A stretch of 53,485 nucleotides of DNA from a virus. Positions within the stretch are counted from its first letter, which is position 1. Each line of letters starts with the position of its first letter. The stretch covers positions 1 through 53,485 of IMG/VR virus record IMGVR_UViG_3300006076_000005. One strand, written 5' to 3'. The notes beneath the pieces are model-generated. The model saw only the letters and a list, made by a program, of their open reading frames with translations, was not told the origin of the DNA and did no database searches. Made by a program: the position numbers and the translations under genes. Below, in pieces: positions 2,696 through 49,921 of the stretch.

Positions 2696-2727
2696 GTTAC
2701 ATTTTTTTAAATAAAAAGGAGTTGATG

Positions 2728-3819: not shown

Positions 3820-4240
3820 CAATATCTTCACGTAGGGTCGCTACTCCTACGCCGCGGCTTTACCCGCTGCTCTAGGTTTCCCTAGACGACCAGGGTTTAC
3901 ACATCCTGGAAGGTTGTATACTATAGGGCTGTTAGTATACAACGTTGAGACTATATCTTCAGTAGCATAAAGCTACTGGGCGGCTTTACGAGGTCGCTTG
4001 ACCTCTCTCTTTAACAGAAGTCTTGGTCATTTAACTCCTGTTAAAATTTAGTCGTTGAACGTTCGCCATAGGTTTATAACCCTTAGGTGCTTCGCTGCGG
4101 ATCACCCATTATTGCATCCTTACACTTTTTACCATACCCTGTTGGTTAGACAGGCCCCCACATCTGTTTCCAGTGTGAGTTGGTATGCAAGGCTTTAGGG
4201 CTTTCCCGCAATTAACCGCCTTTAAAGAGAACCAAAGTTA
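3820..4240 (-). ncRNA. Group I self-splicing intron, 421 nt, no endonuclease ORF
   Basis: On the minus strand the core elements are all visible. P is TGCGGGAAAG (4210-4201) and Q is CCGCAGC (4100-4094), pairing as P4. R is GTTCAACGACTA (4060-4049) and S is AAGATATAGTC (3959-3949), pairing as P7. P1 forms between the exon end AGAGGAU and the guide GGUUCUCU, with the diagnostic U.G at the splice site. P10 pairs the exon 2 start CAAA with UUUG. The last intron base is G. Extra hairpins include a GTTGTATACTA stem and a CTAGG-GAAA-CCTAG tetraloop. The first intron codon is TAA, so unspliced mRNA would give a truncated protein. The intron is far richer in GC than its surroundings. Splicing restores an exact in-frame 583-residue protein. 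Confidence 0.93.
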
Positions 4241-5686: not shown

Positions 5687-5759
5687 TGATACTCCTTTAA
5701 TAAAGTTTTTTATACACTCATTATCATGAGTCTCTAATAAAATAAATTAGAAAAAAGGA

Positions 5760-7743: not shown

Positions 7744-9912
7744 TTAGCTTAAAGACTCAACATAGATAGGAAGTTGTCTAACAGCTTCATCAAGATTGAT
7801 CACATTGGCTACTACAACAATTGGTAAGAATGGTTGATGTTTGAAGCTTAGGATAACATCATTTTGATCGTATTTAGCTTTGCCTTCTCTTACACCATAA
7901 CTAAGTACAAATTCATTTTTAACCCATGTTACACCAAAGCTTAATGGGTTAGCTGCTTTATTAATGTTAGCGTCAAGTTGTCTGTCGATACCGAAACTGA
8001 TGATCATTTTGTCATCCATGATGCTATATTTAGAACTAACTACAACATATCTGAATTTTTCATCTTCGAAAGATTTGAAGTATTGGTTAATCTTAGCACT
8101 AGTACCAATAATAACTACTGGTTTTTGTCCTGGATAGTAATGATCGAATGCAAATTTATAATTAGATTTAGTATACATATCCCAAGCAATAGTTTTGATA
8201 TAAAGTTCAAATGCTGCTTGAATATCTACTAATCTTTCTGAAGTTTTTAAGCTGTTAACAAGTCTTTTAACATCGATAACTAAGTTATCTTTATGATATT
8301 TGTTAATTAAGAAGTTAGCAACACCAAATGTTTTATAATCATTCGCCATATGTGGTAATGCTGCGATGTATTTAAATAGTGTTGTAAATCCATGCGCGTT
8401 CATAGCGTCTACACTATATCCAACTAAGCTATAAAGACCTTTAGGTTTTTTGTCGCTTCCAAGTTGGAACGCAGGTGTTTTTTCAGAAAGTTTAACTCTT
8501 GAAGGAACATTATAAACAAATGCATAACTAGAGATGTTAAGTCTTTTTCCTTCATATCTTCCCATTTCGTTGTTACCATAAGCTTCTATGTCATAAGCTG
8601 CTAATTTAGCTCCGCTAACAGCTGCAACTGCATCTGTATAATCATCAGGACTTAACTCATTTCCATTGTTGTCGTAAATACCTTTGAATTTACTGCTAAA
8701 TTGATTTACTAAGATGTTGGCAGTATCAACGTTAGCATCACCTTTGAAGTTAACTTCTAAGATCATATAGTAACCGTCTGTTAAATCTTGTAAAGCTTTA
8801 ATTTGTGTTGGTTTTCCACTAGCTGTAATAAATGGTGCTTTGAAAATGAATGATCTAGACTCGTTAAGTTGCATATCTTTATCATTACCATCTAGCGTAT
8901 ACAAGAATGAAATAGGTAATCCACCAACTTCTTTTCTATAAAGTTCTTTTACATCATTACCATCTTTGTCTTTACCAGTGATCCAGAAGTATACTGTTTC
9001 AATGTTTAATACTGGTAAAATAGTATCTAATTCGTTTAAGAACCCTTTTGCTAAAAGTGTGTCTGTTTGGCTAAGATTTAAGATATTTGTTTCAACACCA
9101 GCTTTGATAGCTGCAGTTGTGACTTTAACACCATCCATTAATTCAACTTCTTTTTTAGCACCCTCTTCGTTTAATAAATAATTAGTATTAACATACTCGC
9201 CATCTACTCTTAAGATAGGATAAAGTCTGTTTCCATCGATAACGTATCTGTTAAAGTCTTCGATATGCTTAATATATGGTTCTTTTTTGTAATCCACTGG
9301 TTTACCGTTAGGTAATCTTTTAAATGGTGTAATGTAATGGATAACATCAACTTCTACATAAATTTCTTGTGTGTCAATATCTAATTGTACTGTTGGGAAG
9401 AATGTTTCAATAACAGGATCTTGTTTTTTCTCAATGCTGTTAAATGCTACTGTAAAGAATACAGATTTTTTAATATCGATGCTGTTAACATCTTCATTAG
9501 CTGGAATTAACGAACTATAAAGATCTTCTGAGTTGTTTATGGCAGGCGAAAGATCTCTACTAACAGAAACAACTTCAATATTTTCATTAGCCGCTTTTAA
9601 TTCTTCTGCTAATCTACTTTGTCTTTTAGATAATTTTTCAAGTGTTTCAACAGGATTTAAAACACTTTTAACTAACCTAGTTGATTTTTCAACTAGATCT
9701 TCACTATCATCATCACTACCGATACTATCTTCATGCGCTATACCTGTTGTAAGCGCTGCTTGAATAGTATTTAAAAAGTTAACAGCTTCAGGTGTTGTAG
9801 TTCCAATATCTTCACCAGCTGCAACAAGTTTACCGATACTTTTTAGTTCATCTTGCGTATAATTATCAATTTTCTCTGCAAGATTATTTAAAATAGTTTC
9901 TATTTTACCCAT
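7744..9912 (-). CDS. Major capsid protein, phiKZ-like, with cleavable propeptide
   Basis: 722 residues, close to the roughly 750 of the phiKZ capsid protein. The N-terminal 140 residues are a helical, acidic propeptide or scaffold-like region. It contains several A-x-E sites of the kind used by phiKZ-type prohead proteases: KAANE-N at 110 and IPANE-D at 140. After residue 140 the sequence turns beta-rich and hydrophobic (KKSVFFTVAFNSIEKK), as expected for a HK97-fold shell protein. The C-terminus (PFLPIVVVANVINLDEAV) resembles the end of giant-phage capsid proteins. The ATG at 9912 has AAGGAG, and a very strong terminator follows. Base composition is slightly richer in GC than neighbours, as often seen for highly expressed phage genes. 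Assignment rests on length, propeptide and synteny with RNAP beta. Confidence 0.8.
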   Translation of the reverse strand: MGKIETILNNLAEKIDNYTQDELKSIGKLVAAGEDIGTTTPEAVNFLNTIQAALTTGIAHEDSIGSDDDSEDLVEKSTRLVKSVLNPVETLEKLSKRQSRLAEELKAANENIEVVSVSRDLSPAINNSEDLYSSLIPANEDVNSIDIKKSVFFTVAFNSIEKKQDPVIETFFPTVQLDIDTQEIYVEVDVIHYITPFKRLPNGKPVDYKKEPYIKHIEDFNRYVIDGNRLYPILRVDGEYVNTNYLLNEEGAKKEVELMDGVKVTTAAIKAGVETNILNLSQTDTLLAKGFLNELDTILPVLNIETVYFWITGKDKDGNDVKELYRKEVGGLPISFLYTLDGNDKDMQLNESRSFIFKAPFITASGKPTQIKALQDLTDGYYMILEVNFKGDANVDTANILVNQFSSKFKGIYDNNGNELSPDDYTDAVAAVSGAKLAAYDIEAYGNNEMGRYEGKRLNISSYAFVYNVPSRVKLSEKTPAFQLGSDKKPKGLYSLVGYSVDAMNAHGFTTLFKYIAALPHMANDYKTFGVANFLINKYHKDNLVIDVKRLVNSLKTSERLVDIQAAFELYIKTIAWDMYTKSNYKFAFDHYYPGQKPVVIIGTSAKINQYFKSFEDEKFRYVVVSSKYSIMDDKMIISFGIDRQLDANINKAANPLSFGVTWVKNEFVLSYGVREGKAKYDQNDVILSFKHQPFLPIVVVANVINLDEAVRQLPIYVESLS

Positions 9913-33247: not shown

Positions 33248-34492
33248 TTAAACAAATGGTACAGTAAAAGTAGTAACATAGAATTTGTGTAATAATAGGA
33301 GTATGGGTAAATAATAGAATAGGTGCTCCTCATTGAGTAAATGTAGATTTTCGTATAGTTCCGTTAAATCATCAAATTCTATAGGTTCTCTTAATATCAT
33401 GCTTAATACAAGTTGCTCGAATAGTGTTAAATTCTCAGTATCTATCTCATCGTCTCTCTTTATTACATCATATATCTCTTTTCTAAAGATATATCTACCG
33501 TCAGGTAAGTATGGGTACAATTCATTTATTATACCATTGTCTTTATAATCGCCAGATCCTTTAAGTTCTAATATATAATCTATACAACTATAAGACAATG
33601 ATGAAAGATAAGGATTAATAGGAAATCTAGCCGGTTTGTTTTCAACACAGAACTCTTTTATTCTACCAGTAGGTTGGTTAGAGTCTATTAGATAATCTAA
33701 AATAGATAAACTCTCTGATTTTAAACCCACTATATTAAGTTCAACAGACAGATTACTATAACCTATAACTTTATCTATAAAATTCTCCATTTCAGGATCA
33801 TAGATTATGTTATTATGTTCATTTTCATATGTTAAGTAGAATTCATGATCAGGGATTATAAAGGTTTCTTGGAAAAGATTAACCATTTTTTCTATACGTC
33901 TAAATATCTCTTCTCTTTCTACAAAATCTTCTTTTTTATATAAAGGTTGCGTATGTGTTTGTCTATATTCATCATTGTAGATAAGTTCTTCTGTAGTAGA
34001 CTCTAATAGTTTCTTAATAAGAGGATCTTCTAAATTTTCATATTCTCCATAAAGCATAAAACTTATTTTAAACATATTGTCGTTATTATAATTAAATCTT
34101 TCAACACTTTCTATAGTAAATATAACGTTTTTACCATCTATTAACTTAGCTATAAAGAGATCATTTGGATTAGGTATAAAATCTATATCTATAATAGCTT
34201 CGCCTTTTAGATCATCTCCTATACCCTCTGGTAAGGGTTCTTGTAGGTATAATGTTAGATTGTCTATTCTGATATAGTCTTGCAATGTAGGATCTAAATT
34301 AGGATCATACTCGGTTACTTGAACCATTTCATTTATAAGTCTATGAAAATAGGTTACTTTCCATTTGTGACCTTGAATAAAAGCTCTAACAGGTTCATCA
34401 ACTACCTCACTTCTAAACAATGGCACAAGTGATCTATCTTCTTTCTCTTTGATCTCTGCTTCTAACTCTTTTTTTAAACCATATATAGGCAT
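33248..34492 (-). CDS. Tail/baseplate structural protein
   Basis: 414 residues. The segments HKWKVTYFHRLINEMVQVTE with YDPNLDPTLQDYIRI (about 42-75), and FIPNPNDLFIAKLIDGKNVI with FTIESVERFNYN (about 105-135), follow a pattern common to structural proteins of large myoviruses (TEYD......Y..I.....; P..GD.F.......G....VT....). There is no signal peptide or TM, though the C-terminus is hydrophobic (FYYLPILLLLHKFYVTTFTV), possibly buried in assembly. The ATG at 34492 follows AAAGGAG. It is in an operon with the 34508 gene (15-nt gap). Confidence 0.55.
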   Translation of the reverse strand: MPIYGLKKELEAEIKEKEDRSLVPLFRSEVVDEPVRAFIQGHKWKVTYFHRLINEMVQVTEYDPNLDPTLQDYIRIDNLTLYLQEPLPEGIGDDLKGEAIIDIDFIPNPNDLFIAKLIDGKNVIFTIESVERFNYNNDNMFKISFMLYGEYENLEDPLIKKLLESTTEELIYNDEYRQTHTQPLYKKEDFVEREEIFRRIEKMVNLFQETFIIPDHEFYLTYENEHNNIIYDPEMENFIDKVIGYSNLSVELNIVGLKSESLSILDYLIDSNQPTGRIKEFCVENKPARFPINPYLSSLSYSCIDYILELKGSGDYKDNGIINELYPYLPDGRYIFRKEIYDVIKRDDEIDTENLTLFEQLVLSMILREPIEFDDLTELYENLHLLNEEHLFYYLPILLLLHKFYVTTFTVPFV

Positions 34493-34507
34493 TATAACTC
34501 CTTTCTA

Positions 34508-35887
34508 TCAGTCTTTATTAACACCATACTTATGCAGTAATAATTCACTATTACTCGTTATGATGTTTATGTTAAGTTCTTTAAATAGTTTTTTTGTATC
34601 GTTTATGACATCTTCTTCTTTTTTATCTATATAACTTAAGTCTATAATAAACTTAAATATGATATGGTAAACTTTTGTTATATTCATAGGTTCTTTAGTT
34701 CTTACATTGTTATTTTCATCCACATAGAGACCAAGATCTTTTATATTGTTACCCTCATATAGTTCTAATAACACGCCTGTCTTACCTAGTCTTGTTATAT
34801 TAGAACCTCTTCTTTTCATATATTCTACAAGGTTATCAGGTAGTCCTATATATTTTAAATCATCAAGATTAAACAATAAATCTGGTTGGTCTTTATCTAC
34901 TTCTATAAGTAATGATAGGAAATTAATATTCCATATTTTTTTATTAGGATCAGGCATTAGAGCAAAGTTGTCATAATTAGGTACTTTGAATATAATGTCT
35001 TCTTCATTTTTCATACCTAAGGAATACTCTACTAACCAAGATCTTAATAATAAAGTAAAATCTATATTAGGAGTAACTTTAGCAAAAGTTTCTTCACCCA
35101 ACCATACTTTACTAAGGGGTTTGTTATTAATTAATATAGGATATTGAACAAACAAACTAATAGGATTATCAAATGTTACTCTATAATCAAATTCAAATAT
35201 GTATTCAGGTACATCATTTCTTGTTATTTCTATATTTTCAGGATTAGTTTTAAAACTACCATATCTATTCATTTGTTTACCTCTATAAACTGGTATCTTA
35301 TATTCACTACCTCTTTTTACAGCAGCATCTAGTTCTTTAATAGCTATACTATTAAGGTAATCTATAACATCTATATCTAAACCTTTCAATGTCTTTATTT
35401 CATTAGCTAAAACTATTACATTATACGGGAATAGAAAGCTATATTCAAGGTTATGACTACATACATAATTAGTAGTGTAATAGAAATTAAGTAGTTTAGA
35501 TTTTAAGTTTAATAGTTCTTGTTTGGATTGTGATCTAAATCTATAATGTAAATTAATTTCAGTCTGTCTAAATAATGGTCTTATAGAAAATCCATTATCT
35601 TTATCTAAAACAATAGGAACTGTTCTATAACGTATATAAGAAGTGGTTATAGCTAATTCTTCGGTTGGTTTTATTTCATATTCTATATCTAAAGTCGGTC
35701 CTCCTAAAGTATTGTCATAAACATAATCTGGAAATTCAACATTTTCTCTATCGTACTTAGTTTTAAGATATAGGAATGCGTTAAAATCCTTAATAAATCT
35801 GGACATAATATCATTAGTTATCTGTTTTATAATTTTATTATAAACAGTTATTTCTTGTCCTTCTATATTAGCTATTTTTGTTATCAT
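34508..35887 (-). CDS. Tail/baseplate structural protein
   Basis: 459 residues, beta-rich. The stretch INLHYRFRSQSKQELLNLKS (about 115-135) and FDYRVTFDNPISLFVQYPIL (about 230-250) look like repeated beta-sandwich halves of a virion protein. No enzyme motif is visible. The ATG at 35887 follows AAGGAG. It precedes the gene at 33248 in the same transcription unit, behind a strong terminator, which indicates co-expressed tail components. The exact role is unknown. Confidence 0.55.
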   Translation of the reverse strand: MITKIANIEGQEITVYNKIIKQITNDIMSRFIKDFNAFLYLKTKYDRENVEFPDYVYDNTLGGPTLDIEYEIKPTEELAITTSYIRYRTVPIVLDKDNGFSIRPLFRQTEINLHYRFRSQSKQELLNLKSKLLNFYYTTNYVCSHNLEYSFLFPYNVIVLANEIKTLKGLDIDVIDYLNSIAIKELDAAVKRGSEYKIPVYRGKQMNRYGSFKTNPENIEITRNDVPEYIFEFDYRVTFDNPISLFVQYPILINNKPLSKVWLGEETFAKVTPNIDFTLLLRSWLVEYSLGMKNEEDIIFKVPNYDNFALMPDPNKKIWNINFLSLLIEVDKDQPDLLFNLDDLKYIGLPDNLVEYMKRRGSNITRLGKTGVLLELYEGNNIKDLGLYVDENNNVRTKEPMNITKVYHIIFKFIIDLSYIDKKEEDVINDTKKLFKELNINIITSNSELLLHKYGVNKD

Positions 35888-36444: not shown

Positions 36445-37863
36445 TTAACTCCTTTTAATATAGTTTTTTACAAAATTATTTATAGCTTCTTCCGCTACTT
36501 TTTTCTTTTCTTTTTCCTCTTTTTCTTTTAACTTCTTAATCTCTATAACTGCCGCATTGTTAATGTCTAGTAAAACACTATAAAGTTCATTAGCAAAGTT
36601 TCCATATGTAGTTATAATAGTTATAATGCTCTTAATAGAATTAGTATAAACTACTAATATATTTTTAACTTCTCCAAACACTTTTTTATATTTTTCATCA
36701 ACACTTTCGACTTTTATTCCGTTAATATCGTTACCTATCTTTGTACACTCGTTCCCTAAATCGCTTATAGTATCGGTAAATTTGTTATAGATATTATCAA
36801 AACTAGTTTTATTAACTTCTTTAATATCTGTATCTTTATCTATCATAACGCTATTAGCTTCTATATTAACACCAATGTTCTTTTCAGTATTTTTTATTTG
36901 TTTAGTTTTATTGCCCTCTAAACTATATGATTCCACAGTAGCTTTTTCTTCTTTAAAGTTTAGTCCTATTTTAGTAGCAAAACTATTTTTAGGTATTTCG
37001 GTAAGAACTTCTTTATTAAAGATAGAGTCTTCTATAAATCTTATAAACTTATTGTTAATCTTTACAACATGAAATGGATCTTTAAGACTATTTAAAAAGA
37101 AATTAGTAAAAGCTAAACTACCATCTACAAACTTATCTTCTCCTTTAGCTATAGATGTTAACACATCAACAGGTGTGACATTATTTTTTAAATCATCTTT
37201 TAATTTCTTAATAACATCTGTTAAATTTAATAGGATTTTATTAACGAATTCTTCAGCTGTATCTAAAGATTTAGTTATATAAACATACAAGATATTGTTT
37301 TCTAGATAGAACATATTTTCTACTTTAACGTTTTTATCTAGTAGAATAGCAACTTTAATTAGCTTATCTAATAGCTTTTTAGCCTCATCGTTAGGTATAG
37401 CTAAAGGATCTTTTAACTTAGGAAAATCTTTTATCTCTTTAATAGTGGAGTTGATACTATCACATTTATCTTTGTTAGATTTTGTTTTAGATTTAAATAA
37501 ACTTTTAAACCAATCCGCTATCTTACCTAATAGTTCTCCTATCTTTTCAAATATCTTACCTATAAATTCAAATATTTTATCAAAGATATCTTTTATAGCA
37601 TCTCCTATACCTTCCTGTGCTATAATTGTCATAGGGTATCTTATTGTTTCATGTTTAATGTTTAATTCCTCGCAAGTTATTGTTAGATACTTGTTTATTA
37701 TTTTTAATTCTGTATCAGTAAGAGTTATGTTCTCATTAGCGCTTACAATATTGTCTGCTTTTTCTAAATAAGTTATCGCTTTGTTAATCTTTAGAGATTC
37801 ATTAACTATCTGGTTAAATTCGTTTTCAATATTGATGATGTCTACTAAAATAGCTTCTGCCAT
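36445..37863 (-). CDS. AQEGI-family protein D (inner-body-like, processed)
   Basis: 472 residues, one of four related neighbours. An N-terminal propeptide-like region (1-80, with SANENITLTD) ends in the site TIIAQE-GIGDAI (80-90). It is followed by an amphipathic/hydrophobic helix of about 45 residues (KDIFDKIFEFIGKIFEKIGE, LLGKIADWFKSLF). The remainder is helical and Lys-rich, ending in a coiled coil (EIKKLKEKEEKEKKKVAEEA). A-Q-E fits the A/S-x-E consensus reported for the phiKZ prohead protease, which trims inner-body and capsid proteins. It is therefore probably packaged in the head and cleaved on maturation. Confidence 0.6.
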   Translation of the reverse strand: MAEAILVDIINIENEFNQIVNESLKINKAITYLEKADNIVSANENITLTDTELKIINKYLTITCEELNIKHETIRYPMTIIAQEGIGDAIKDIFDKIFEFIGKIFEKIGELLGKIADWFKSLFKSKTKSNKDKCDSINSTIKEIKDFPKLKDPLAIPNDEAKKLLDKLIKVAILLDKNVKVENMFYLENNILYVYITKSLDTAEEFVNKILLNLTDVIKKLKDDLKNNVTPVDVLTSIAKGEDKFVDGSLAFTNFFLNSLKDPFHVVKINNKFIRFIEDSIFNKEVLTEIPKNSFATKIGLNFKEEKATVESYSLEGNKTKQIKNTEKNIGVNIEANSVMIDKDTDIKEVNKTSFDNIYNKFTDTISDLGNECTKIGNDINGIKVESVDEKYKKVFGEVKNILVVYTNSIKSIITIITTYGNFANELYSVLLDINNAAVIEIKKLKEKEEKEKKKVAEEAINNFVKNYIKRS

Positions 37864-37883
37864 TATTTACTCCTTGTATGTTT

Positions 37884-37910
37884 TTTATTAAAAAATAATT
37901 CAAGACAAGA
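37884..37910 (-). promoter_or_regulatory. Candidate phage promoter element
   Basis: Minus strand TTGTCTTGAATTATTTTTTA, 21-47 nt before the ATG at 37863 and overlapping the end of the preceding terminator. It shares TTGTCTTGAAT with the copy at 16222-16247. Confidence 0.35.
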
Positions 37911-37934
37911 CGGAGTCTTAAGACTCCGTCTTGT
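37905..37934 (-). terminator. Intrinsic terminator
   Basis: A perfect 13-bp stem ACAAGACGGAGTC / GACTCCGTCTTGT with loop TTAA, after the gene at 37938 on the minus strand. It is followed by CTTGAATTATTTTTT. Confidence 0.85.
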
Positions 37935-37937
37935 TTG

Positions 37938-39521
37938 TTAACGTTCATAATATTGTTTAGTACCAGCGTTTACTAAATTAGTAACAAACGCATCATAATC
38001 ATATATGATTTTAATTAAAGTTCTAATATTTGTCAATGCGTAAAGATTAACATAAAGTTCAAATTTCACTATGTTAGCAACAGATCTAGTAAAATATTTG
38101 ATCAATTCTATTTTGTTAGTGTAGTTTTTATCTTTTTTATTTGCAATTTTCTTACGTTCTTCCTCCATGTATTCTATTACTTCATTCGCATAACTGTCAA
38201 ATTTTTTCTCCGCCTTTTCTAAATTTTTAACTTTTTTACCTAGTATTTTGTTAGTTTTACCCATATCGTTCATTAATTTTTCTGTTAATATCTTATTTCT
38301 TAGAATAAAATCTTTTAAAGCTTTATCAAAATCTTCAATACTTTTGGTTTTTGTAATAATATCTATAAATTCATCTATTAACTTGTCTGTATGAGTTGTT
38401 TTTATGTTGTCCTTTGAGAACTCTAAAGTTGATTCATTTACTTTTATTTCAGCAAAACTTTTAACAACATTATTTTCAATGTTTTTTTGTCTAACTAAAG
38501 TAGCATTATTTATAGGTATTTTAAATGCTTCTTTTTCTCTATAAATACTTATTTTGTAAATACCTGAAATTACATCTTCACCATCAGTCGGTTTGTATGC
38601 TTTGCCATAATAGAGCTCATCCTTAAATACTGATAGGATTGTTTCTGTGTTAAGATTTTTTACAATTTCTAAAGTTTTTCCTATTTTCTTTTCAATTTGG
38701 TTATTAAGTTCGTTAATATAAGTCTTTAATGCCGCTTTACCGGTTTTATCGAAAGCATTACCTCTATCTTCAGGTATTAAATCTTTACCTTTTATAGTTG
38801 TTTTCTTAATATTTTCCAATTCCGCTTTTAAATCAGATATAAGTTTTGCAGTATCTATTTTTTCATATACACCCAGTTTAGAAAATACAGCACTAAAATC
38901 CTTTGTATTAATACCTTTTACTACGTGATTAACATAAAAATCCGCCATTAAACTTATATTAGATGTTCTGTAAGAATTAAGTTTAGATATATAAACATCT
39001 TTGTTTTCTATAACTAATTTTAATGTGTTATTTTTTATTTGTTTTATCATAGTTTCTGCAGAAACATGTCTCCCTGAACTTTCGCCAGAACTACTTTCAA
39101 AAAAACTTTTTATAAATTCTACAAACTTTTTAATAAGGTTAATAATAAACTCAAATAGCTTTTTGATACTTTCAAAAATAGCTTTAAATACACTACCTAT
39201 AGCATCAAGTATACCTTCCTGCGCAACCATAGTATTTTCATCTAGTTGTAGATCTAAATTAAGGTCTTCGTTAACAGCTTTAATGTTGGCTATAGCTAAT
39301 AACCTAGTAGCTTCATCTAGTTCTTCATTACTGGTTATAAGTTCTTGTGTTCTATTTAACTTCTCCAGATTTTTATCAAGTATGCCTGAAATAATTAATT
39401 CTTTCCAAACTTCTTCAGCTGTTTGGATCTCTTCCATAGCGTTGTCTAACTGTCTGTATAGATCATTTTGATATAATGCTACAGAAGCACTATGACTTTG
39501 TTTTAAAGGTACAGTAACCAT
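37938..39521 (-). CDS. AQEGI-family protein C (inner-body-like, processed)
   Basis: 527 residues. The propeptide-like region (1-101) is helical and acidic and contains KAVNEDLNLDLQ (81-92). The processing-type site is TMVAQE-GILDAI (97-108). It is followed by the hydrophobic amphipathic helix VFKAIFESIKKLFEFIINLI, then KKFVEFIKSFF (about 111-141) and a Ser/Gly linker (ESSSGESSG). The body is helical and Lys-rich. It is the closest match to protein D in the site and helix. It has its own terminator and promoter-like upstream region, so the four genes are separate units rather than one operon. Function is inferred as a head-internal, ejected or membrane-interacting protein. Confidence 0.6.
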   Translation of the reverse strand: MVTVPLKQSHSASVALYQNDLYRQLDNAMEEIQTAEEVWKELIISGILDKNLEKLNRTQELITSNEELDEATRLLAIANIKAVNEDLNLDLQLDENTMVAQEGILDAIGSVFKAIFESIKKLFEFIINLIKKFVEFIKSFFESSSGESSGRHVSAETMIKQIKNNTLKLVIENKDVYISKLNSYRTSNISLMADFYVNHVVKGINTKDFSAVFSKLGVYEKIDTAKLISDLKAELENIKKTTIKGKDLIPEDRGNAFDKTGKAALKTYINELNNQIEKKIGKTLEIVKNLNTETILSVFKDELYYGKAYKPTDGEDVISGIYKISIYREKEAFKIPINNATLVRQKNIENNVVKSFAEIKVNESTLEFSKDNIKTTHTDKLIDEFIDIITKTKSIEDFDKALKDFILRNKILTEKLMNDMGKTNKILGKKVKNLEKAEKKFDSYANEVIEYMEEERKKIANKKDKNYTNKIELIKYFTRSVANIVKFELYVNLYALTNIRTLIKIIYDYDAFVTNLVNAGTKQYYER

Positions 39522-39567
39522 GTTAACTCCTTACTTACTTAATGTTTTAATCAAAGAAAAAAAGTTC

Positions 39568-39596
39568 ATAGAGAGTTCCTTAATGGAACTCTCTAT
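39568..39596 (-). terminator. Intrinsic terminator
   Basis: A perfect 12-bp stem ATAGAGAGTTCC / GGAACTCTCTAT with a 5-nt loop, after the gene at 39605. It is followed on the minus strand by GAACTTTTTTTC. Confidence 0.85.
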
Positions 39597-39604
39597 AGTT
39601 TATA

Positions 39605-41095
39605 TTAAACTTTTTTGTAAAGTCTAGCAGACTCTTTATAAACATCACCTATAGTTGATCTTGCTAAACTCATATATGTTTCTGCAAACCCTCTAGCTTC
39701 TTCTTTAGCTTTGCTAGTAAGAAGACTAAAGATCTTTCTAATAACATTCGCTACATCGGAATTAGATTTATATTTTTCACTTTTAAGAGTTTTGTCTATA
39801 GATTTCTCCATATCTTTAGCAGCTTTATCTACCATCTTTTTATATTTATCCGCGTTTTTGTTCGCTTTTTTAGCTTTATCTTCAAGATTATTAACAAATG
39901 TTTCTAATTCGCCGAAAGTTAACGGTTTAATATTTTCATAATCATCTATTAAATCATCTGTTTTAGGACTAACGATTGTTAATTCATAGTGTACGTTAGA
40001 AACAAATTTATTTAAATCTTCGTATGTCATATCGGTTTTATCTATATGGTCGAATCCGTCATCTTTAATACCTATAGTCGCAATAGCAACTTTGGTAGGT
40101 GTTAATGAAATAACCTTTTGATAACAAGCTGCGTATTTGTCGGCGATAGCTGAAATTTCACCGTCTACTGCATCGAAGATGTTTTTATAGTCGTTCTCCT
40201 TTATTCTTTCAACTTTTTTCTCAACATTACTAATGCTGTCTAATCCAGTTAATTCAACAAGTAATGCAATAGCTGATTCTCTAGGCGTTGTTTTGTTAAG
40301 AATGTTGTAACTGCCTTCAGTCTTACCATCCTCTTTGATTTTACCATCATCACCATCCTTTTTGATTTTACCATCATCTTCGTGCGCCACAACAAGACTT
40401 TCTTGAACAACTGTTGGGATTATATTATCTTTAGTTAAAAGATCTTTAACAGTATCATACTGCTCATTCACAAATTCGACATATTCATTACCTGTTAGTT
40501 TTTTATTTCCTTTTTCTAGCATAACAACAGTAACTTTACTTACTAATCTTTTAGCAGTTGCTTCTGGAAATTCGTCTACACTAAGATCTGTCTTTTTCTC
40601 TTTTTTAAGCTTTTTAACTAAGTCAGCAAGTTCCTGATAAGTCGCGCCCTCTTTACCGAAAATACCTTTAACAAAGTCAACTACTTTCATAATTAGGTTT
40701 CTAATAAATTCCCAAGCTTTCTTAGCGTATTCTTTAATTTTATCCCAAACATTTTTCATAGTGTCTTTAATACCTTCTTCAGCAACTGTAATATCTTCAT
40801 TAGCAGGAACTAATTCACCAGCAAGATGATCTTGATTAATATTGCTTAATGCAATAGCAGCCATTTCTTGCGCCACAACAGAACCCAAACTTCTATCTTT
40901 CTGAGCTACTGCTTTTGAAAATTCAGCAGCTTCTTCAAGTTCTCTAGCTGTTTTATCTAATGCAGCTAACGCTAAACCAGCAGCATTAAGGTCTTCATTA
41001 GCAATTCTTACCTCATCCGCTAAAGTTAAAAGATCAGTTTCACTATTAGCCGATCTCATTGATCTACCAGTTTCTTTAAGATTAATTGTTAACAT
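39605..41095 (-). CDS. AQEGI-family protein B (inner-body-like, processed)
   Basis: 496 residues. The N-terminal 105 residues are unusually Ala/Glu-rich, with several A-x-E sites: IANE-D (34), VAQE-M (77), PANE-D (100) and VAEE-GIKDTM (104-112). The last corresponds to the AQEGI site of the relatives. It is followed by a more polar amphipathic helix (WDKIKEYAKKAWEFIRNLIM, KVVDFVKGIF). A short charged repeat, DGKIKKDGDDGKIKEDGK, occurs at about 240 (27-nt tandem repeat in DNA). The C-terminus is helical. Base composition is a little richer in GC, as for the capsid gene, suggesting high expression. Probable head-internal protein. Confidence 0.6.
   Translation of the reverse strand: MLTINLKETGRSMRSANSETDLLTLADEVRIANEDLNAAGLALAALDKTARELEEAAEFSKAVAQKDRSLGSVVAQEMAAIALSNINQDHLAGELVPANEDITVAEEGIKDTMKNVWDKIKEYAKKAWEFIRNLIMKVVDFVKGIFGKEGATYQELADLVKKLKKEKKTDLSVDEFPEATAKRLVSKVTVVMLEKGNKKLTGNEYVEFVNEQYDTVKDLLTKDNIIPTVVQESLVVAHEDDGKIKKDGDDGKIKEDGKTEGSYNILNKTTPRESAIALLVELTGLDSISNVEKKVERIKENDYKNIFDAVDGEISAIADKYAACYQKVISLTPTKVAIATIGIKDDGFDHIDKTDMTYEDLNKFVSNVHYELTIVSPKTDDLIDDYENIKPLTFGELETFVNNLEDKAKKANKNADKYKKMVDKAAKDMEKSIDKTLKSEKYKSNSDVANVIRKIFSLLTSKAKEEARGFAETYMSLARSTIGDVYKESARLYKKV
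40326..40379 (-). repeat. Two-copy 27-nt in-frame tandem repeat
   Basis: Units 40326-40352 and 40353-40379 differ at two positions. They encode the acidic/basic repeat DDGKIKKDG / DDGKIKEDG within AQEGI-family protein B, and are probably a slipped-strand duplication in a linker. Confidence 0.7.
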
Positions 41096-41159
41096 TATCT
41101 TCTCCTTATGTAGTTTTTTTAATAATTCAAAATATGTTTATACTATGTAAACACATTCA

Positions 41160-43499
41160 CTATATGTTTTTCTCTTTCTTATCTATAGAATTTTTTATTT
41201 CATCAAACATTTCATCAACCACTTTTTCTGCTTCTTTTAAATCCTTAGCTATCCCTTCTTTAAATTTCTTATGGTCATCACTTATACCATAATAGTCTAA
41301 ATAAACTCTATAAAAGATCCTATTGCCTGTAACTTCAACATTACCTACTTTATCAGAGTACTCCATAAATACTCTAGTAAGATTTAAAATAAGTCTTAGA
41401 TCCAATAACAAAAACTTCTTAACGAATAAGATTTGTTCTTTTAATAATAACGATTTAACATATTGTAAATAATCTAAAGAAAAAGCCGCCACACTATCGA
41501 TATCAACATTATTAACTATAGATTTAATTAAATTTATTACTTTATCATCTGTTATATTTTTTATACTACTTATTTCTACTAGAATATTCTTAAATGCGTC
41601 TAATTTTTCAGTTTTACCATCTGTATTTAATTCAGTTTTTATGTTATCATCAGCTCTATCCATTTTACCTTTTAGTTTTTCAATAACTTTATTCAGATTT
41701 AATATATCTTTTTTGTATGCGCTTGTTACAGGAACATATTTATTTAAATAAAAATTATTTAGAAGTTTTTCTTCTCTTTCATTTCTTAAAAACGAGAAGT
41801 TCAGTTTCTTGTTAATAACAGCTTTATTACTATTATAACGTTTTATGTTTAAATCCGGATTAAACTTATTATTTAATTCTTTAAAGCTATTCAATAAGCT
41901 ATCCTTATTATATACGAAAATATTATAAACTTCAGATATCACTACCATTGTTATAATATTAATCATAACTTTTCTATCTACAGTCATACCGCCTTCTAGA
42001 TTTAACTTTCCACTATTATGAAGTTTAAAAAGTTCTACCATTCTGCTAGCTAGTTTATTATAATATTTTATAGAACTTGTTAATAAATTATAAAAATCTT
42101 GATCTATACTTTCGGCTTTTAATTTTAAGACTGTGTCTTCTATATCTATGTTTTTAGCAAAAGCTATAAAATCCAGAACTAACATAATTCTACTATCGTC
42201 AGGTATACCCTCATTGTTCATGGTTTTATCTATAAGTTGTGAAAGTTTATCCCAATCCACTTTTTCTTTGTTTATAAGTTTTTCAATACTTTCCTTTTTA
42301 GATAAAAATGATCTATTAATGAAGTTAGATGTCCTAATAGAACTCAATCCTAAGAAGTTTTCATCACTATTTAATTTTGATAATTTTATTAATTCTACTA
42401 ATGTTGTTTCCTCAAAATCGTTAAATAAATCTACGCTAAACCCGCCTGTCGTTAATTTTTCTTGCAATTGCATTAACCCCTTATCTATATTATCTAGAAA
42501 TTTATATAAACCATCTACTATACCATTTTCATAATTTAGAAAAGGATAAACAATAGCATCTTTTTTCTCATTTAGAGATTCTATTACTGACTCTAAACTT
42601 TTTGTAGTATTGTTAATATACTTAAACACATTCTCTATATATTTAGCGTTAAAGAAATCACCTATAGTTAAGGCAACTTCGCAATTTGCAACATTACCCA
42701 TATAACAACCTTCGAATACAGGTGCTAACGAGTATATCTTTAATTCAGAACCTTCAGTAACAATATTGTCATCACCATTTTTAGGTATAGCATGTGTGTA
42801 TATTTTATTAATTCCAATAATGTGTCTAACATAGTCTTCAGCATAGTCTCTCATTATTTTTATAACTATATCGAAAATAGTTTTATAAGTTATGTTATTT
42901 TCTTTTTTAAATTTGTTTTTAATTTCCGTTAGAACTCTTTCTTTAACTTCATCTACTTTATCTTTAGCTTTTTTTACGGCTTTTTTAACAGTAGTAGAAT
43001 AGCTTCCCCCACTACTACTTCCACCACCACTTGAACTACCACCTCCAAATAGTCCTAATATAAAATTTATAACGGCTTTTATAATACCTATAACAAACTT
43101 AATAAGACTAGCGATTATGTTAATAATGGTTCTGAAGACAAACATAATACCTTTACCTATAGCAGAAAATATGCCTTCTTCACCTACAGATAATTCTACT
43201 AATATAGAATCTTTGCTTTCACCAGTTATATTTTGTATTGTATCTGCTATTATCGGTACAAAATTTTCTTTAGCTACACCTAATTTGCTAGTATTATATA
43301 ATGTTTCTAATTTCTTAAGATTAACTTCCTGTAAGACCAATTGTCTTTCTTGTTCTAAGAAATTATTATAGTATTCATTAGCTTTTAAAATATCATCGGT
43401 TAAATTAGTTTCTAACTCTTTAACGATCTCTTTCGTAACGTTTAATGTTTCTTTGGTTATATTTAGTTTTTCTTTTAACGATACTGTAACAGTAGACAT
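41160..43499 (-). CDS. AQEGI-family protein A (largest; inner-body-like)
   Basis: 779 residues, the largest of the family. The propeptide-like region (1-107) is helical with heptads (LNITKETLNVTKEIVKELE). The site reads LSVGEE-GIFSAI (103-114). The segment after it is truly hydrophobic for 40 residues (MFVFRTIINIIASLIKFVIG, IIKAVINFILGLFGG) and would pass as two membrane helices. It is joined by a Gly/Ser linker (GGGSSSGGGSSSGG, 152-165) to a long helical body. Maturation at the site would leave the hydrophobic helix near the new N-terminus, a layout suited to membrane insertion. The ATG at 43499 has AAGGAG. Confidence 0.6.
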   Translation of the reverse strand: MSTVTVSLKEKLNITKETLNVTKEIVKELETNLTDDILKANEYYNNFLEQERQLVLQEVNLKKLETLYNTSKLGVAKENFVPIIADTIQNITGESKDSILVELSVGEEGIFSAIGKGIMFVFRTIINIIASLIKFVIGIIKAVINFILGLFGGGSSSGGGSSSGGSYSTTVKKAVKKAKDKVDEVKERVLTEIKNKFKKENNITYKTIFDIVIKIMRDYAEDYVRHIIGINKIYTHAIPKNGDDNIVTEGSELKIYSLAPVFEGCYMGNVANCEVALTIGDFFNAKYIENVFKYINNTTKSLESVIESLNEKKDAIVYPFLNYENGIVDGLYKFLDNIDKGLMQLQEKLTTGGFSVDLFNDFEETTLVELIKLSKLNSDENFLGLSSIRTSNFINRSFLSKKESIEKLINKEKVDWDKLSQLIDKTMNNEGIPDDSRIMLVLDFIAFAKNIDIEDTVLKLKAESIDQDFYNLLTSSIKYYNKLASRMVELFKLHNSGKLNLEGGMTVDRKVMINIITMVVISEVYNIFVYNKDSLLNSFKELNNKFNPDLNIKRYNSNKAVINKKLNFSFLRNEREEKLLNNFYLNKYVPVTSAYKKDILNLNKVIEKLKGKMDRADDNIKTELNTDGKTEKLDAFKNILVEISSIKNITDDKVINLIKSIVNNVDIDSVAAFSLDYLQYVKSLLLKEQILFVKKFLLLDLRLILNLTRVFMEYSDKVGNVEVTGNRIFYRVYLDYYGISDDHKKFKEGIAKDLKEAEKVVDEMFDEIKNSIDKKEKNI

Positions 43500-43560: not shown

Positions 43561-43585
43561 TGAGGGTTAATTTACTACACCCTCA
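43561..43585 (-). terminator. Weak hairpin at gene end
   Basis: A 7-bp stem TGAGGGT / ACCCTCA around an 11-nt loop, overlapping the stop of the gene at 43575 on the minus strand. The U-tract is poor. Confidence 0.4.
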
Positions 43586-44600
43586 CTTCCATATATTTTT
43601 TAATCTTCATATCCAGTTTATTAAGTTTCTCTTCATAGAACTCTATCTGTTTTCTGAGTTTCTCATTATTGATATCTCCAGATTGTCTAGATTTAAGTTC
43701 TAGTAGTTTAAGTTCTAATAATCTTTTTTTCTCTTTAAGATTTTCTAATCTCATTAATGAAAGATCTACCAGGAACAATCTTAAATGGTAAATAGGATTA
43801 CCTATGAAATTAGTTGCTATTCCTATATCTTCTTTTATCATAACTTTATTATGGTTACGAGAATGTTTACGAGAGTGTTTGGTATTTGATTTAAATGTCA
43901 CAAGATCTAAAAGCTTACCAACAAATGATTTTGTAAATAGATCTTTGAAATTGAATTTCTTACTTAAAAAATCCATAACTACAATCTCGGATGGTATATC
44001 CGAAATTTTCTCCATTTTAAGAGTAGTTATAGTTGGTATGTTACCTATAGCATCAACAACTGCTTTTAAATCCGCTTTGTGCATTTCAGGTATTAAATTA
44101 AAAAAAGTAACTGTCTTACCTGCTATAGAGGATTTGATTTCCTGATCCAATTTACTTTTCTCTTTTATATAGAATCTATTTATAATATTAGTTATAATAA
44201 GTGGAGTATTTTCTAAAAAGAAAGCTCCTTCACTCACTAATGCTAAAATAAGTCTTTTATTAAGATCTGACGTATTAGAAGCTAAAGTGTCTTCCACAAC
44301 ATCATCTATCTTATCTTTTAATGTTGGTAAAATGCTTCTATATTTTTCTAATGCTTTTAGGGTTACCTTAAATATATCTTCATCTGTCTTTATAGAGGCA
44401 ACTTTTTTAAAATTGATAGCCAGAACACTTTCTGTAATATTGTTCTTGTCTTTTGTTTCTTTTATTAAATCAGTTATAGCAGGTAATATTGTTTTACCAA
44501 ACTCTTTATCTATATTGTCTAAAATATTTAACAACTCTTCTTTTTGGAACACATAATGCTCCATAGTCACTTTTCTTCTTCTGTATGGTTTGTTATGCAT
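43575..44600 (-). CDS. Virion-block protein with C-terminal coiled coil
   Basis: 341 residues from the ATG at 44600 (6 nt after GGAG); an ATG at 44603 is only 3 nt away. The N-terminus is basic (MHNKPYRRRKVT). A His/Arg-rich loop HSRKHSRNHNK lies at about 250. It is followed by IGNPIYHLRLFLVDLSLMRL and a strong coiled coil to the end (NLKEKKRLLELKLLELKS). The NP.YH...LVDL...R......KRLLELKLLELK pattern occurs, as I recall, in conserved proteins of several large phages, but no function is known to me. It is paired with the 44621 gene. Confidence 0.65.
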   Translation of the reverse strand: MHNKPYRRRKVTMEHYVFQKEELLNILDNIDKEFGKTILPAITDLIKETKDKNNITESVLAINFKKVASIKTDEDIFKVTLKALEKYRSILPTLKDKIDDVVEDTLASNTSDLNKRLILALVSEGAFFLENTPLIITNIINRFYIKEKSKLDQEIKSSIAGKTVTFFNLIPEMHKADLKAVVDAIGNIPTITTLKMEKISDIPSEIVVMDFLSKKFNFKDLFTKSFVGKLLDLVTFKSNTKHSRKHSRNHNKVMIKEDIGIATNFIGNPIYHLRLFLVDLSLMRLENLKEKKRLLELKLLELKSRQSGDINNEKLRKQIEFYEEKLNKLDMKIKKYMEVRV

Positions 44601-44620
44601 CATCTACTCCTTATATATTT

Positions 44621-45802
44621 TTAAAATGGTTGATTATTTTTTAAGAATTCTTTAACTACTTTTTCAACGTCAGATTCTTTACCTTTTTCTAACATTTTGA
44701 AATTAAGAATGCTAAATCCAGGTATACTTTTAATAAATACAGTAACTTGTTCTTTTTCTAAATCCACAAATGTTAAATCAAACCCCATAAACTTATCCAA
44801 CACTTTATCTTTATATCTATCTTTTAATAAGCTTCCTCTTATGTTAGATTCTATAAGTGCTTGTTTGTCTTGGTTAAAAATATAAATATTATAGTTTTTA
44901 GCAAAAGAGTTAGTTCCGTTAATAAGGTCTTTAACCATAGTAACTTTGTCAACTTTGTTTAAGTAGTTAGCTATATCAGATTCGTTACTCAATTTTCTTT
45001 TTCTATATTTTTCTACTAAATCAGATGCTAAAATAAGGTCTGCTAAACTTATAGCTCCTGCTCTCCAATCCCAAAATCTTGATAGGAATTTTTTATCGTG
45101 ATCATTTTCTAACATATTGTTAATAAAGTTTTCAGCGTTAATAAATTTAATATTAGGATAAACTATTAACGGTACCGAAATAGTCATTTGTTTAACATCT
45201 TTTTTACCATTAGGTAAAGTTATGGAATTATAAATATTGAATTGTAAATCAACAGTATTTATGAATGCTTTCGTATCTTTAAGCTTATTAAATTCAGCAT
45301 TACTCATATGGTAATCAAGTGGTTCTCTTACTAAACTTCTCATATACTTAGCCTCTTGTGCTATAGTTAATGTTCCTTCTTCTTTTACTACATCTGTAAC
45401 AAAATCTGTTGTTAAAGATTCTTCCGCTATAAGTGATCTTAATCTCTCTAACTCATCTATACCAACATTTCTAGTATTAAGTAACGCGACAGTATCTGCC
45501 ACTCTGTAACCATATAGTTCTATTAATGTTCTATAAGCAGTAGCTAAGAACCCTATAAACAATTTAACTTCTGTTTGTACAAGTTTTTTATAATCGTTAG
45601 GATCCATGTATTTAAGACTTTCGTCTACAAATATAAATGGTGTAACAACGAAGTTACCTACTAACTTTGTGATATCCCCTTTAGCAATGATATCCCTTCT
45701 CTTCATAAGGTTTTGCAAAACTTTGTCATCTTCATGATCTCCAATAGATTTAAAGATATTAGCTAAAATCAAAAACGACTTAGTAAACGCCTTACCTATC
45801 AT
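44621..45802 (-). CDS. Putative virion protein with A-x-E sites
   Basis: 393 residues. The first 110 are helical; residues 125-160 hold RSLIAEESL, VVKEEGTL and TIAQE-AKYM, which resemble the A-x-E sites of the neighbouring family, though without the following hydrophobic helix. Later segments include LQFNIYNSITLPNGKKDVKQ and SRFWDWRAGAISLADLILAS. No enzyme motif is seen. The ATG at 45802 has AAAGGAG. It starts the minus-strand block divergently from the structural gene at 45897. Probably a protein processed with the head proteins. Confidence 0.55.
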   Translation of the reverse strand: MIGKAFTKSFLILANIFKSIGDHEDDKVLQNLMKRRDIIAKGDITKLVGNFVVTPFIFVDESLKYMDPNDYKKLVQTEVKLFIGFLATAYRTLIELYGYRVADTVALLNTRNVGIDELERLRSLIAEESLTTDFVTDVVKEEGTLTIAQEAKYMRSLVREPLDYHMSNAEFNKLKDTKAFINTVDLQFNIYNSITLPNGKKDVKQMTISVPLIVYPNIKFINAENFINNMLENDHDKKFLSRFWDWRAGAISLADLILASDLVEKYRKRKLSNESDIANYLNKVDKVTMVKDLINGTNSFAKNYNIYIFNQDKQALIESNIRGSLLKDRYKDKVLDKFMGFDLTFVDLEKEQVTVFIKSIPGFSILNFKMLEKGKESDVEKVVKEFLKNNQPF

Positions 45803-47086: not shown

Positions 47087-49921
47087 ATGGATATTAAAAA
47101 TTATTTATTAGATCCTAATCTAATACAAAAAACAAGTTTAGACAATTTAGAAAAAGCTTTAGATGGTAATTTAGATATAACAGACCCCACTAACCCATTT
47201 ATGTTTCTATTAGAAAATAGTGCTAATGTGGCGGCTTCAACTCTACAAGGGTATATGGCTTTATTAAGAAGAGTTTATCCTAACCTAGCTAAAGAACCCG
47301 AAGATCTTTTCCCGCACTTTAACTCTTCTGCGTTAGCTAATATTTATAGTTCTCCTAGTAACGCTATATTTAACCTTATTATAAATATTGAAAACTTTAT
47401 AAATAATTCTACACAAGGTAAAGGTTATTATCTAGCGATTATACCAAAATATAGTTATATTAAAGTAAACAATGAATACACATTTACCTTACTTAACAAC
47501 GTAGTTATTAAATATTATCCTAATTCTAAAAAGATAATATGTAAAATAGAAGGCAATAGCGAAATAGAAATATCTGAAAAAGAAAACGAATATTTAGAGT
47601 CTAGTATATTTAAAGATAACAACGGTAAAGACTGGATGATTTTAAGAATACCTATGAAACAATTAACTAGATTTAAAATAAGCGATAACTTTATATCCAC
47701 TATGGCTTATAAAAAGACTTTTAAGATAGAAGACTATTTTAACTACATCGTAGTGAAAACTCTTAATCCATTAACCAACAAAGAAATAAAGCTTAATATA
47801 ACGCATGATGATTATAATATAAACCCTAATATACCGACTATGATAGTCAAAGCACTACAACAAGAAGTAACACTAGAATTACCTGTTATTTATAATCTAA
47901 AAGGAGTTGTTAGCGATAGGTTCGATATTGAATTATTTACTACTAAAGGAGCGTTAGAAGTACCTATAACTAAATATGATACTGACAGATTTGTTTTAAC
48001 CATAGTTAATGAAGAAGATTTACCCGACGTATTTAAAATAAGCGACATCAATCATTTTGTGACCGCTTATACGGACATAACAGGTGGTAAAAATGAGATA
48101 GACTTTATGGAACTGAAAAATAGAATCATAGACTATACTACAGGTGATAATAAAATACCTTTAACGTTAGAAGAGATAAAGGAGAAAGCAAGTAGGTATG
48201 GTTACAGGTTTAGATATGTATTAGATACTATATTTAAAAGAGAGTTCCTTATTAATAAACCTATTATAAACATAAATCCCAATATAGTAATAGATACTAA
48301 CGATTATCAAGATTTTATTAGATTTACTAAACCAGAAGTTGCAGACACAAAAATCAAATTCGTTAATGAAGATAAATCTGTCATTATAGAACCTTACCAA
48401 ATGTTTGAGTTTAAAGATGGTAGACTCACTATACTTAAAGAAAAAGAAATGGAATATATAAGAAATTTACCTAAAAGCAATATAGACGAATATAATAATA
48501 GAAAGATATTCTTTAACTTCTTTAAATATATTTTAGACAATGATGAGAAATTAGAATATAGGATATATGATGTTTCAGAACCTAAAATAGTTTCAACGGC
48601 TACAGAGTATAACAATGATGATCTAAATACTATAGTAGTTATAAAATCAAGATCAGTTATACGATATGACAATAAATATATTGTAAAATATGTTATAGAT
48701 GGTAATACCAATATTTTAGAATTAGATGTAGAAGAACTATACGGAGAATTGTCAGTAACATTAGACAATAACGAAGAGATAAAATTTAATACTAAAGCTT
48801 ATTTAGATAATACAGATCTAATATTTGAGTTCACTATACCTTATGATCCTTATATAACAAAAAACGACCTTATGCAAATATTTAGTAATTATGGAGAAAT
48901 CAATACTGCTTATATAGGTAATAGCAATAAAGCTAAATTTAGACTATATACTAAAGACCCTCAAGCAGCCCCCGGTCATAATTTTAGAGTTGACGATATA
49001 AGCGACACTAATGTTGTGGCTGTTATATACGAGGATGAGTCTACTTTAGATTTTCTAACAAGGATAGATACTTTATTTTCTAATTATTATATAGATTATA
49101 CGGAGAGAAAATTTAAGACTTACGACAAGGATGTTTATTTAACGTATAGTGAAGATGTGTATGAACTAGATGATGATGGTTTACCTAAACTTTACCCTAT
49201 CTATGATGAAAATGGTAACATCGTAGATTATGAAGTTAAAGTTTTACATAAAAAAGGCGACGTAGTTAAAAACGAAAATGGTGATCCTATTGTAAAACAT
49301 AAAAAAGGTGATATTATATTAGATAAAAATGGTAATCCTATTATAGATAATGAAGTAGGCGTTATACACAACATCAATATACATCTTATGGAAGATATCT
49401 ATTTAAGAACTTCTAATTTAGATTATGTAGCCTATATATTAGATTACCATAAAAGACTTAGAAATATATTAAGAAAAGAGATCCTTGAATTTAATAAACA
49501 ATTATTAGAAAATACTAAGTTTAAATATATATCCGATTTCAACTTAGGTAAGGTTATACTTAACTATAACTATAGTTATCTAATTTTTGATAATTTCTTA
49601 AAACCTACTATAACCTTATATGTAGATAAAGATAGCATAAATTTCTCATTAACAGACGAACAAAGATTACAAATAGTTGGCATAATAGAGAAGTACTTAG
49701 TAGACAACTTTAAGATCAATGATTTAGAAAAAGAGATAGAGGAGTTTTTAGGAAATGAAGTTAAAAGTATTAAAATCGATCTCTTACCTAATAATGATAT
49801 ACGATATATAGACTATTCTGAAAAATCTACAAAATTTATTATAGGTAAAAGATTAAAATTTAACGATAATGGCGATACTTATGTAGATGCCGATGTTAAT
49901 ATAGTAACAATAAAAATATAA
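47087..49921 (+). CDS. Large baseplate wedge-like protein (gp6/gpJ type)
   Basis: 944 residues, 11 nt after the previous gene. The N-terminal region LEKALDGNLDITDPTNPFMF, LLRRVYPNLAKEPEDLFPHF and SPSNAIFNLIINIENFI resembles wedge proteins of large phages. At about 331-375 GGKNEIDFMELKNRIIDYTT, then PLTLEEIKEKASRYGYRFRY with VLDTIFKREFLI, matches the baseplate-J/gp6 layout (GG...F.ELR....PIT...L....GY...D...R.Y). An internal imperfect repeat of KKGDVV.NENGDP occurs near residue 725. The protein would form the wedge ring of the baseplate. No transmembrane segment. Confidence 0.6.
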   Translation: MDIKNYLLDPNLIQKTSLDNLEKALDGNLDITDPTNPFMFLLENSANVAASTLQGYMALLRRVYPNLAKEPEDLFPHFNSSALANIYSSPSNAIFNLIINIENFINNSTQGKGYYLAIIPKYSYIKVNNEYTFTLLNNVVIKYYPNSKKIICKIEGNSEIEISEKENEYLESSIFKDNNGKDWMILRIPMKQLTRFKISDNFISTMAYKKTFKIEDYFNYIVVKTLNPLTNKEIKLNITHDDYNINPNIPTMIVKALQQEVTLELPVIYNLKGVVSDRFDIELFTTKGALEVPITKYDTDRFVLTIVNEEDLPDVFKISDINHFVTAYTDITGGKNEIDFMELKNRIIDYTTGDNKIPLTLEEIKEKASRYGYRFRYVLDTIFKREFLINKPIININPNIVIDTNDYQDFIRFTKPEVADTKIKFVNEDKSVIIEPYQMFEFKDGRLTILKEKEMEYIRNLPKSNIDEYNNRKIFFNFFKYILDNDEKLEYRIYDVSEPKIVSTATEYNNDDLNTIVVIKSRSVIRYDNKYIVKYVIDGNTNILELDVEELYGELSVTLDNNEEIKFNTKAYLDNTDLIFEFTIPYDPYITKNDLMQIFSNYGEINTAYIGNSNKAKFRLYTKDPQAAPGHNFRVDDISDTNVVAVIYEDESTLDFLTRIDTLFSNYYIDYTERKFKTYDKDVYLTYSEDVYELDDDGLPKLYPIYDENGNIVDYEVKVLHKKGDVVKNENGDPIVKHKKGDIILDKNGNPIIDNEVGVIHNINIHLMEDIYLRTSNLDYVAYILDYHKRLRNILRKEILEFNKQLLENTKFKYISDFNLGKVILNYNYSYLIFDNFLKPTITLYVDKDSINFSLTDEQRLQIVGIIEKYLVDNFKINDLEKEIEEFLGNEVKSIKIDLLPNNDIRYIDYSEKSTKFIIGKRLKFNDNGDTYVDADVNIVTIKI

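Follow-up and report, generated by a model that had tools for sequence, protein, structure and literature searches.

A shared module of a predicted maturation site and a following helix in four putative internal head proteins of a probable phiKZ-type phage

Four adjacent genes in the viral DNA fragment IMGVR_UViG_3300006076_000005 (the window: the whole stretch of 53,485 bases analysed here, with a G+C content of 28%) encode proteins of 779, 496, 527, and 472 amino acids that share an N-terminal propeptide ending in a predicted protease site and, immediately behind it, a helix of about 40 residues. Homology makes it very likely that these are internal head (inner-body) proteins that are processed by a protease and injected into the host. 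They appear to belong to paralog family A (phiKZ_IP; Pfam ID PF12699) or to be closely related to it, and the source phage is probably a diverged, nucleus-forming phage of the phiKZ type. Among the four, only the 779-residue protein carries a helix of transmembrane grade, defined as a Kyte-Doolittle 19-residue mean (KD19) of at least 1.6. The genes and the elements of the module are as follows (classes and L-numbered loci are described below).

41160..43499, minus strand: putative 779-residue internal head protein, class II, with the membrane-grade helix; adjoins the gp90 homologue
43176..43184, minus strand: its predicted maturation site, G106-E-E108 followed by G; G106 and E108 are invariant in 7 orthologues
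43047..43175, minus strand: its post-site hydrophobic helix, residues 109-151, maximum KD19 of 2.22
42999..43046, minus strand: Gly/Ser linker behind this helix; Ser/Gly-rich linkers are likewise present in the L007 and L010 orthologues
39605..41095, minus strand: putative 496-residue internal head protein, class I, above the PF12699 cut-off
40775..40783, minus strand: its predicted maturation site, A105-E-E107 followed by G; E107 is invariant in 9 sequences
40796..40804, minus strand: its second predicted site, A98-N-E100 followed by D, 7 residues upstream; a loop in the structure model
40655..40774, minus strand: its post-site amphipathic helix, residues 108-147; part of a continuous helix, 102-146, in the model
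37938..39521, minus strand: putative 527-residue internal head protein; PF12699 score of 20.7 bits (cut-off, 27)
39216..39224, minus strand: its predicted maturation site, A100-Q-E102 followed by G
39090..39215, minus strand: its post-site amphipathic/hydrophobic helix, residues 103-144
36445..37863, minus strand: putative 472-residue internal head protein; PF12699 score of 23.3 bits (cut-off, 27)
37612..37620, minus strand: its predicted maturation site, A82-Q-E84 followed by G
37492..37611, minus strand: its post-site amphipathic helix, residues 85-124

An earlier note on this DNA had described the four open reading frames (ORFs), a common site near residues 80 to 110, and a helix of roughly 40 residues behind it, and all three are borne out. 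Specifically, the sites end at E84, E102, E107, and E108 and read IIAQE84/GIGDAI in the 472-residue protein, MVAQE102/GILDAI in the 527-residue protein, TVAEE107/GIKDTM in the 496-residue protein, and SVGEE108/GIFSAI in the 779-residue protein (the slash marks the predicted cut). Each is followed by a helix-like stretch of 36 to 45 residues with a hydrophobic periodicity of 98 to 100 degrees (P < 0.001 against shuffles, with the hydrophobic moment assessed on the 36 residues behind each site). The pattern [AGS]xEG[IVLF] arises within the first 150 residues in 1.5 to 7.7% of shuffles per protein, a joint chance of ~1e-6, and the motif combined with an amphipathic helix is seen in 0 of 20,000 shuffles per protein and in none of the 38 other ORFs of the window. 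The 779-residue protein falls narrowly below the amphipathic-helix threshold used in this shuffle test, since hydrophobic residues take up more faces of its helix. Likeness among the four proteins is limited to the module: the 472- and 527-residue proteins share 43% identity over 68 residues (E = 9e-9), and profiles of classes I and II align over 79 columns (E = 4.7e-8). Thus, the statement that the bodies differ holds at the sequence level, but the body of the 496-residue protein itself belongs to the internal-head family (Pfam coverage of residues 44 to 480).

The window encodes homologues of phiKZ gp87, gp88, gp89, gp90, gp98, gp99, and gp101. Their order, gp87-gp88-gp89-gp90, the four genes, gp98-gp99-gp101, is in exact synteny with phiKZ. 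The four genes occupy the gp90-gp98 interval, which is the slot of phiKZ gp92-gp97, and they share with paralog family A the position between gp90/gp91 and gp98 homologues. In phiKZ, the counterpart interval holds gp91-gp97, mostly annotated as internal head or virion structural proteins. The genes on either side of the slot are the following.

43575..45802, minus strand: gp90 (342-residue) and gp89 (393-residue) homologues, at one edge of the slot
33248..35887, minus strand: gp98 (459-residue) and gp99 (414-residue) homologues, beyond its other edge

Family membership is clearest for the 496-residue protein, which matches PF12699 over residues 44-480 with 27.3 bits (cut-off, 27); the lower-scoring matches of the 472- and 527-residue proteins cover the propeptide and helix only. 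PF12699 is matched by 7 of the 9 class I members, and class I matches the phiKZ gp93-family profile across the propeptide and helix (E = 3e-7). The structure model of the 496-residue protein (pTM of 0.69) has a single helix, 102-146, that begins at the site. It matches 39 viral models at E ≤ 0.001; those with names belong to phiKZ-like phages, an “Internal head protein” among them, and their matches run over its whole length. The top matches in the BFVD fold search, which assigns this protein the internal-head-protein fold, are phiKZ-like internal head proteins (E values down to 8e-8, TM values of ~0.3-0.6). Matches to PDB entries, including alpha pore-forming toxins (E > 1), are at chance level and are not interpreted. 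The earlier note had held that a site buried in a fold would refute its reading; in the model, a loop passes into a helix in the region of the site, which is not in a strand, an arrangement that agrees with cleavage without proving it.

An IMG/VR scan with the gp88 homologue yielded 35 loci with related gene arrangements; protein-based IMG/VR scans with the 496- and 527-residue proteins gave no match. Across these loci, 69 of 120 slot genes have an A/S/G-x-E site with an amphipathic helix free of proline behind it, versus 2 of 114 flanking genes scored alike (Fisher P = 2e-23), with thresholds picked during the analysis and not beforehand; at a looser helix threshold (0.50), the counts are 86 and 12. 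The odds of an A/S/G-x-E site are 4.6-fold higher in propeptides than in mature parts (P = 2e-5). Slot gene copy number varies across the loci, in agreement with the two to seven copies published for this paralog family (PMC5694885).

Six loci (L007-L012) represent close relatives, with 48 to 58% identity in the gp88 homologue. Their slot proteins fall into class I, similar to the 496-residue protein, and class II, similar to the 779-residue protein; no orthologues of the 472- and 527-residue proteins were detected in these six. The N-terminal propeptide with its S/A/G-x-E site is kept in the orthologues at the sequence level. Class I proteins often have two sites seven residues apart (TAGTE/S..TAGVE/S), with PANE/DITVAEE/G as the window version. 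Class II members are merely 16 to 19% identical to the window's 779-residue protein, and 5 of their 8 invariant residues lie in the site (G106, E108) and the helix (F122, I125, F146). One relative, L008, encodes three tandem, mutually diverged class I internal head proteins (812-5779, minus strand); this array is a family expansion.

Processing, location inside the head, and ejection of these proteins are well supported because the synteny, PF12699 and fold matches, conserved sites, mass spectrometry of SPN3US proteins, and phiKZ injection data point the same way. The phiKZ protease is reported to have an S/A/G-x-E motif with LSxE enrichment, and phiKZ gp93, gp94, gp95, gp97, and gp163 are injected into the host (PMC10449902). 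In SPN3US, gp53 and gp54, which belong to the same paralog family, are cleaved at AQE-125 and ARE-137, and their mature peptides, GWKETLKDLFER (gp53) and SLWDDIK (gp54), have been seen by mass spectrometry (PMC10052503); these peptides are the first residues of amphipathic helices. A Peptidase_S80 head protease is found in the contig of one close relative, L009 (E = 7e-47). The proposals that the four proteins are head-internal, are cut by a phiKZ-type protease, and are ejected with the DNA are therefore well founded, the last of them by homology.

These data suggest the following course of events. A propeptide of 84 to 108 residues would bring each of the four proteins into the prohead, where a gp175-type protease (Peptidase_S80) would cleave it at several A/G/S-x-E sites. 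The last cut would release a mature protein that starts with the 40-residue helix, and the mature proteins would be packaged with the DNA and then injected into the cell. The least certain steps concern the helix itself: in the 472-, 496-, and 527-residue proteins, it may mainly pack within the protein and the inner body, whereas the 779-class helix, with a Gly/Ser linker behind it, might attach to or insert into either the inner membrane of the host or the early infection vesicle.

The likely lifestyle of the phage bears on this last step. A divergent chimallin of ~605 to 623 residues is encoded by all six close relatives (contigs G001 to G006; E values from 3e-11 to 6e-29). It is found with the PHROG profile only, and a search with the phiKZ protein alone gives no match in these relatives. 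By their profile matches, these proteins read as a distant offshoot of the nuclear shell protein; formation of a phage nucleus is therefore probable in the relatives, as is, by analogy, an early infection vesicle (PMC12908238). In the contig of another locus, L015 (G008), the chimallin match (47509-49356, minus strand) crosses one in-frame TGA, which would be a sequencing error, an interruption, or recoding.

As to the membrane-active helix that the earlier note had proposed for all four proteins, KD19 values behind the site are 0.79, 0.87, and 1.09 in the 472-, 496-, and 527-residue proteins, below membrane grade, and the proposal stays plausible for the 779-residue class only. In that class, the orthologues have values of 1.15 to 2.01, and with the window protein counted, 5 of 7 members reach at least 1.6. 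No such value is found among 101 slot proteins of more distant relatives, and the phiKZ post-site helices do not exceed 1.3. In most family members, the helix looks like an ordinary amphipathic helix.

There is about an even chance that the helix is purely an assembly element, which packs in the mature protein, the inner body, or the interior of the capsid shell and plays no part at membranes; the hydrophobicity of the 779 class would then serve oligomer packing. Such a role fits the amphipathic periodicity seen throughout the family, including its low-hydrophobicity phiKZ members, as well as the presence of phiKZ gp93, gp162, and the vertex-binding gp86 together in one solved structure, 8y6v. 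It also fits the 496-residue model, whose fold includes the helix as one element and matches other internal head proteins from end to end. It accounts less well for the 779 class, where most helices exceed the usual transmembrane threshold, where several members have a Ser/Gly-rich linker behind the helix, and where the helix stands out by its conservation from the remaining, unconserved protein.

Alternatively, the 779-class helix might be a membrane anchor or shaper that is delivered with the DNA and forms or holds the early infection vesicle, which is possible but doubtful. Membrane-grade hydrophobicity directly at the mature N terminus and the divergent chimallin of this clade speak for such a role, as do the precedent of SPN3US gp47, an ejected head protein that is essential and for which a transmembrane helix is predicted after ALE-111, and the location of injected virion proteins inside early infection vesicles (PMC12908238). 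The case is nevertheless an indirect one of hydrophobicity, chimallin, and analogy; gp47 has no detectable relation to class II, and the L010 member has a merely amphipathic helix (KD19 of 1.15). Even the single step of the 779-class helix entering or binding a membrane is less likely than not. The fuller scenario, in which one inner-body class of a nucleus-forming clade has made its post-cleavage helix membrane-inserting, so that head maturation arms a cargo that, once injected, fixes itself to the inner membrane and assists in building or tethering the early infection vesicle, is rather unlikely. Still, because of the hydrophobicity contrast between the classes, the divergent chimallin, and the S80 protease in a relative, a membrane role for the 779 class is a fair hypothesis, with packing inside the head at least as likely.

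Several results weigh against the view of all four as processed, injected head proteins of a nucleus-forming phage, one of them membrane active. Neither chimallin nor the protease gene is found in the 53-kb window, itself a fragment, and processing and injection in this phage are deduced from homologues. Site-plus-helix scores are below the threshold in 51 of the 120 slot genes. At E ≤ 0.001, none of the solved structures matches the 496-residue model, phiKZ gp93 in 8y6v included. The 779-residue protein does not match PF12699, and its model is poor (pTM of 0.24, with helix 107-151 at low confidence); 3 of the 7 members of its alignment match PF12699 weakly at E ≤ 0.1 (best, 4.4e-4), and the protein seems to work like this family without being a proven member. 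For membrane action, hydrophobicity is the sole evidence.

It is very improbable that the sites are chance A/G-x-E triplets in unprocessed proteins. Some homologues of processed proteins are uncut in other giant phages (PMC5694885); however, the joint chance given above is minute, the P3 and P1 residues are kept in orthologues, and the SPN3US homologues have mass spectrometry-mapped sites at the same place. That the four are tape-measure or other tail proteins, as weak PHROG matches with tape measures among the top hits might suggest (best E = 4e-5), can be dismissed, since most of these matches centre on the helical stretch and the synteny, PF12699, and the fold search indicate internal head proteins.

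Elsewhere in the window, there are a match to the PhiKZ major capsid protein family (E = 9e-69), phiKZ-family matches for non-virion RNA polymerase subunits and a DnaB-like helicase, and a gp68 homologue with low identity to named phages (~21-24%). The major capsid protein (7744-9912) has a likely maturation site of the same A-x-E type, PANE-140, which lies immediately N-terminal to the capsid fold's first conserved strand.

9493..9501, minus strand: predicted maturation site in the major capsid protein, A138-N-E140 followed by D

An RNA polymerase subunit (18340-20556, minus strand) is a single ORF of 738 residues spanning two PHROGs, one per half; the matching phiKZ region is divided into gp71 and gp73, with gp72 between them. 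A 477-residue protein (50498-51931, minus strand), encoded close to the structural genes, has an HEVGH zinc-peptidase-like motif, a weak Peptidase_M48 match (E = 0.007), and the highest hydrophobicity among the window ORFs (KD19 of 2.78 near residue 330), and it resembles a membrane-bound metalloprotease. A 232-residue protein (20690-21388, plus strand) matches Rz-like spanins weakly and contains a helical stretch that resembles apolipoproteins.

Given the homologue data in the literature, the earlier note's reading for the most part rediscovers, independently and in a distant phage, biology that was already known. Its claim that the module had not been described does not stand for the parts: S/A/G-x-E or A-x-E maturation sites are published for the paralog family, and a transmembrane helix just after the maturation site is published for SPN3US gp47 (PMC5694885). 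The site plus helix as a stated family signature was not found in the literature searched, which left out the main 2012 phiKZ proteolysis paper, so an earlier statement is possible. Processing and injection have been shown by others for homologues; the module, its conservation, the synteny, the family membership of the 496-residue protein, and the hydrophobicity contrast were computed here. What may be new is that the 779 class is set apart by its membrane-grade helix. The literature searched, which did not extend to three infection-vesicle papers, links no virion protein that has a clear membrane segment to the infection vesicle, and the 779 class offers a concrete, conserved candidate with a defined exposed N terminus for infection-vesicle formation. 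The signature of A/S/G-x-E followed by a 40-residue helix could help to detect head proteins that are processed and ejected in distant phiKZ-like phages beyond the reach of BLAST.

The closest known counterparts are phiKZ gp92-gp97 and gp162/163 (paralog family A), which share the gene slot, the variable copy number, and an S/A-x-E site immediately followed by an amphipathic helix (VISLE/DLKEKLKEAG... in gp93, and likewise in gp94, gp95, and gp96), and several of which are injected. The window proteins differ in having A or G at P3, which is mostly S in phiKZ, and in their mature parts of 388 to 671 residues, compared with ~280 in gp93 if cut at SLE-156; in addition, the 779 class is far more hydrophobic, and the 472-residue protein has no tblastn match in annotated phages. 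In the vertex-binding phiKZ gp86 (L004, 27677-28945), the same type of module occurs, TISQE116/AVMATIINTLKTWFEKLMELF, and residues 25-150 match phiKZ_IP weakly; this suggests that the module also serves shell-associated proteins.

The high-abundance ejection proteins gp53 and gp54 of SPN3US are similar in their mass spectrometry-mapped A-x-E sites, at the end of propeptides of 125 and 137 residues cut at several places, and in mature N termini that open amphipathic helices; their direct match to class I is not significant (E = 0.08), yet it is in register at the site. SPN3US gp47, an essential ejection protein at the phiKZ gp86 position, resembles the 779 class in that its ALE-111 site is followed by a transmembrane helix, which has been proposed to meet the host membrane (PMC5694885). 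However, it occupies another gene position, and no homology between the two is detectable. As proposed for the four proteins discussed here, the internal proteins and Alt of T4 combine propeptide-directed packaging, removal by the prohead protease, and ejection into the host (PMC5694885), but the capsid-targeting propeptides of T4 comprise merely 10 to 20 residues.

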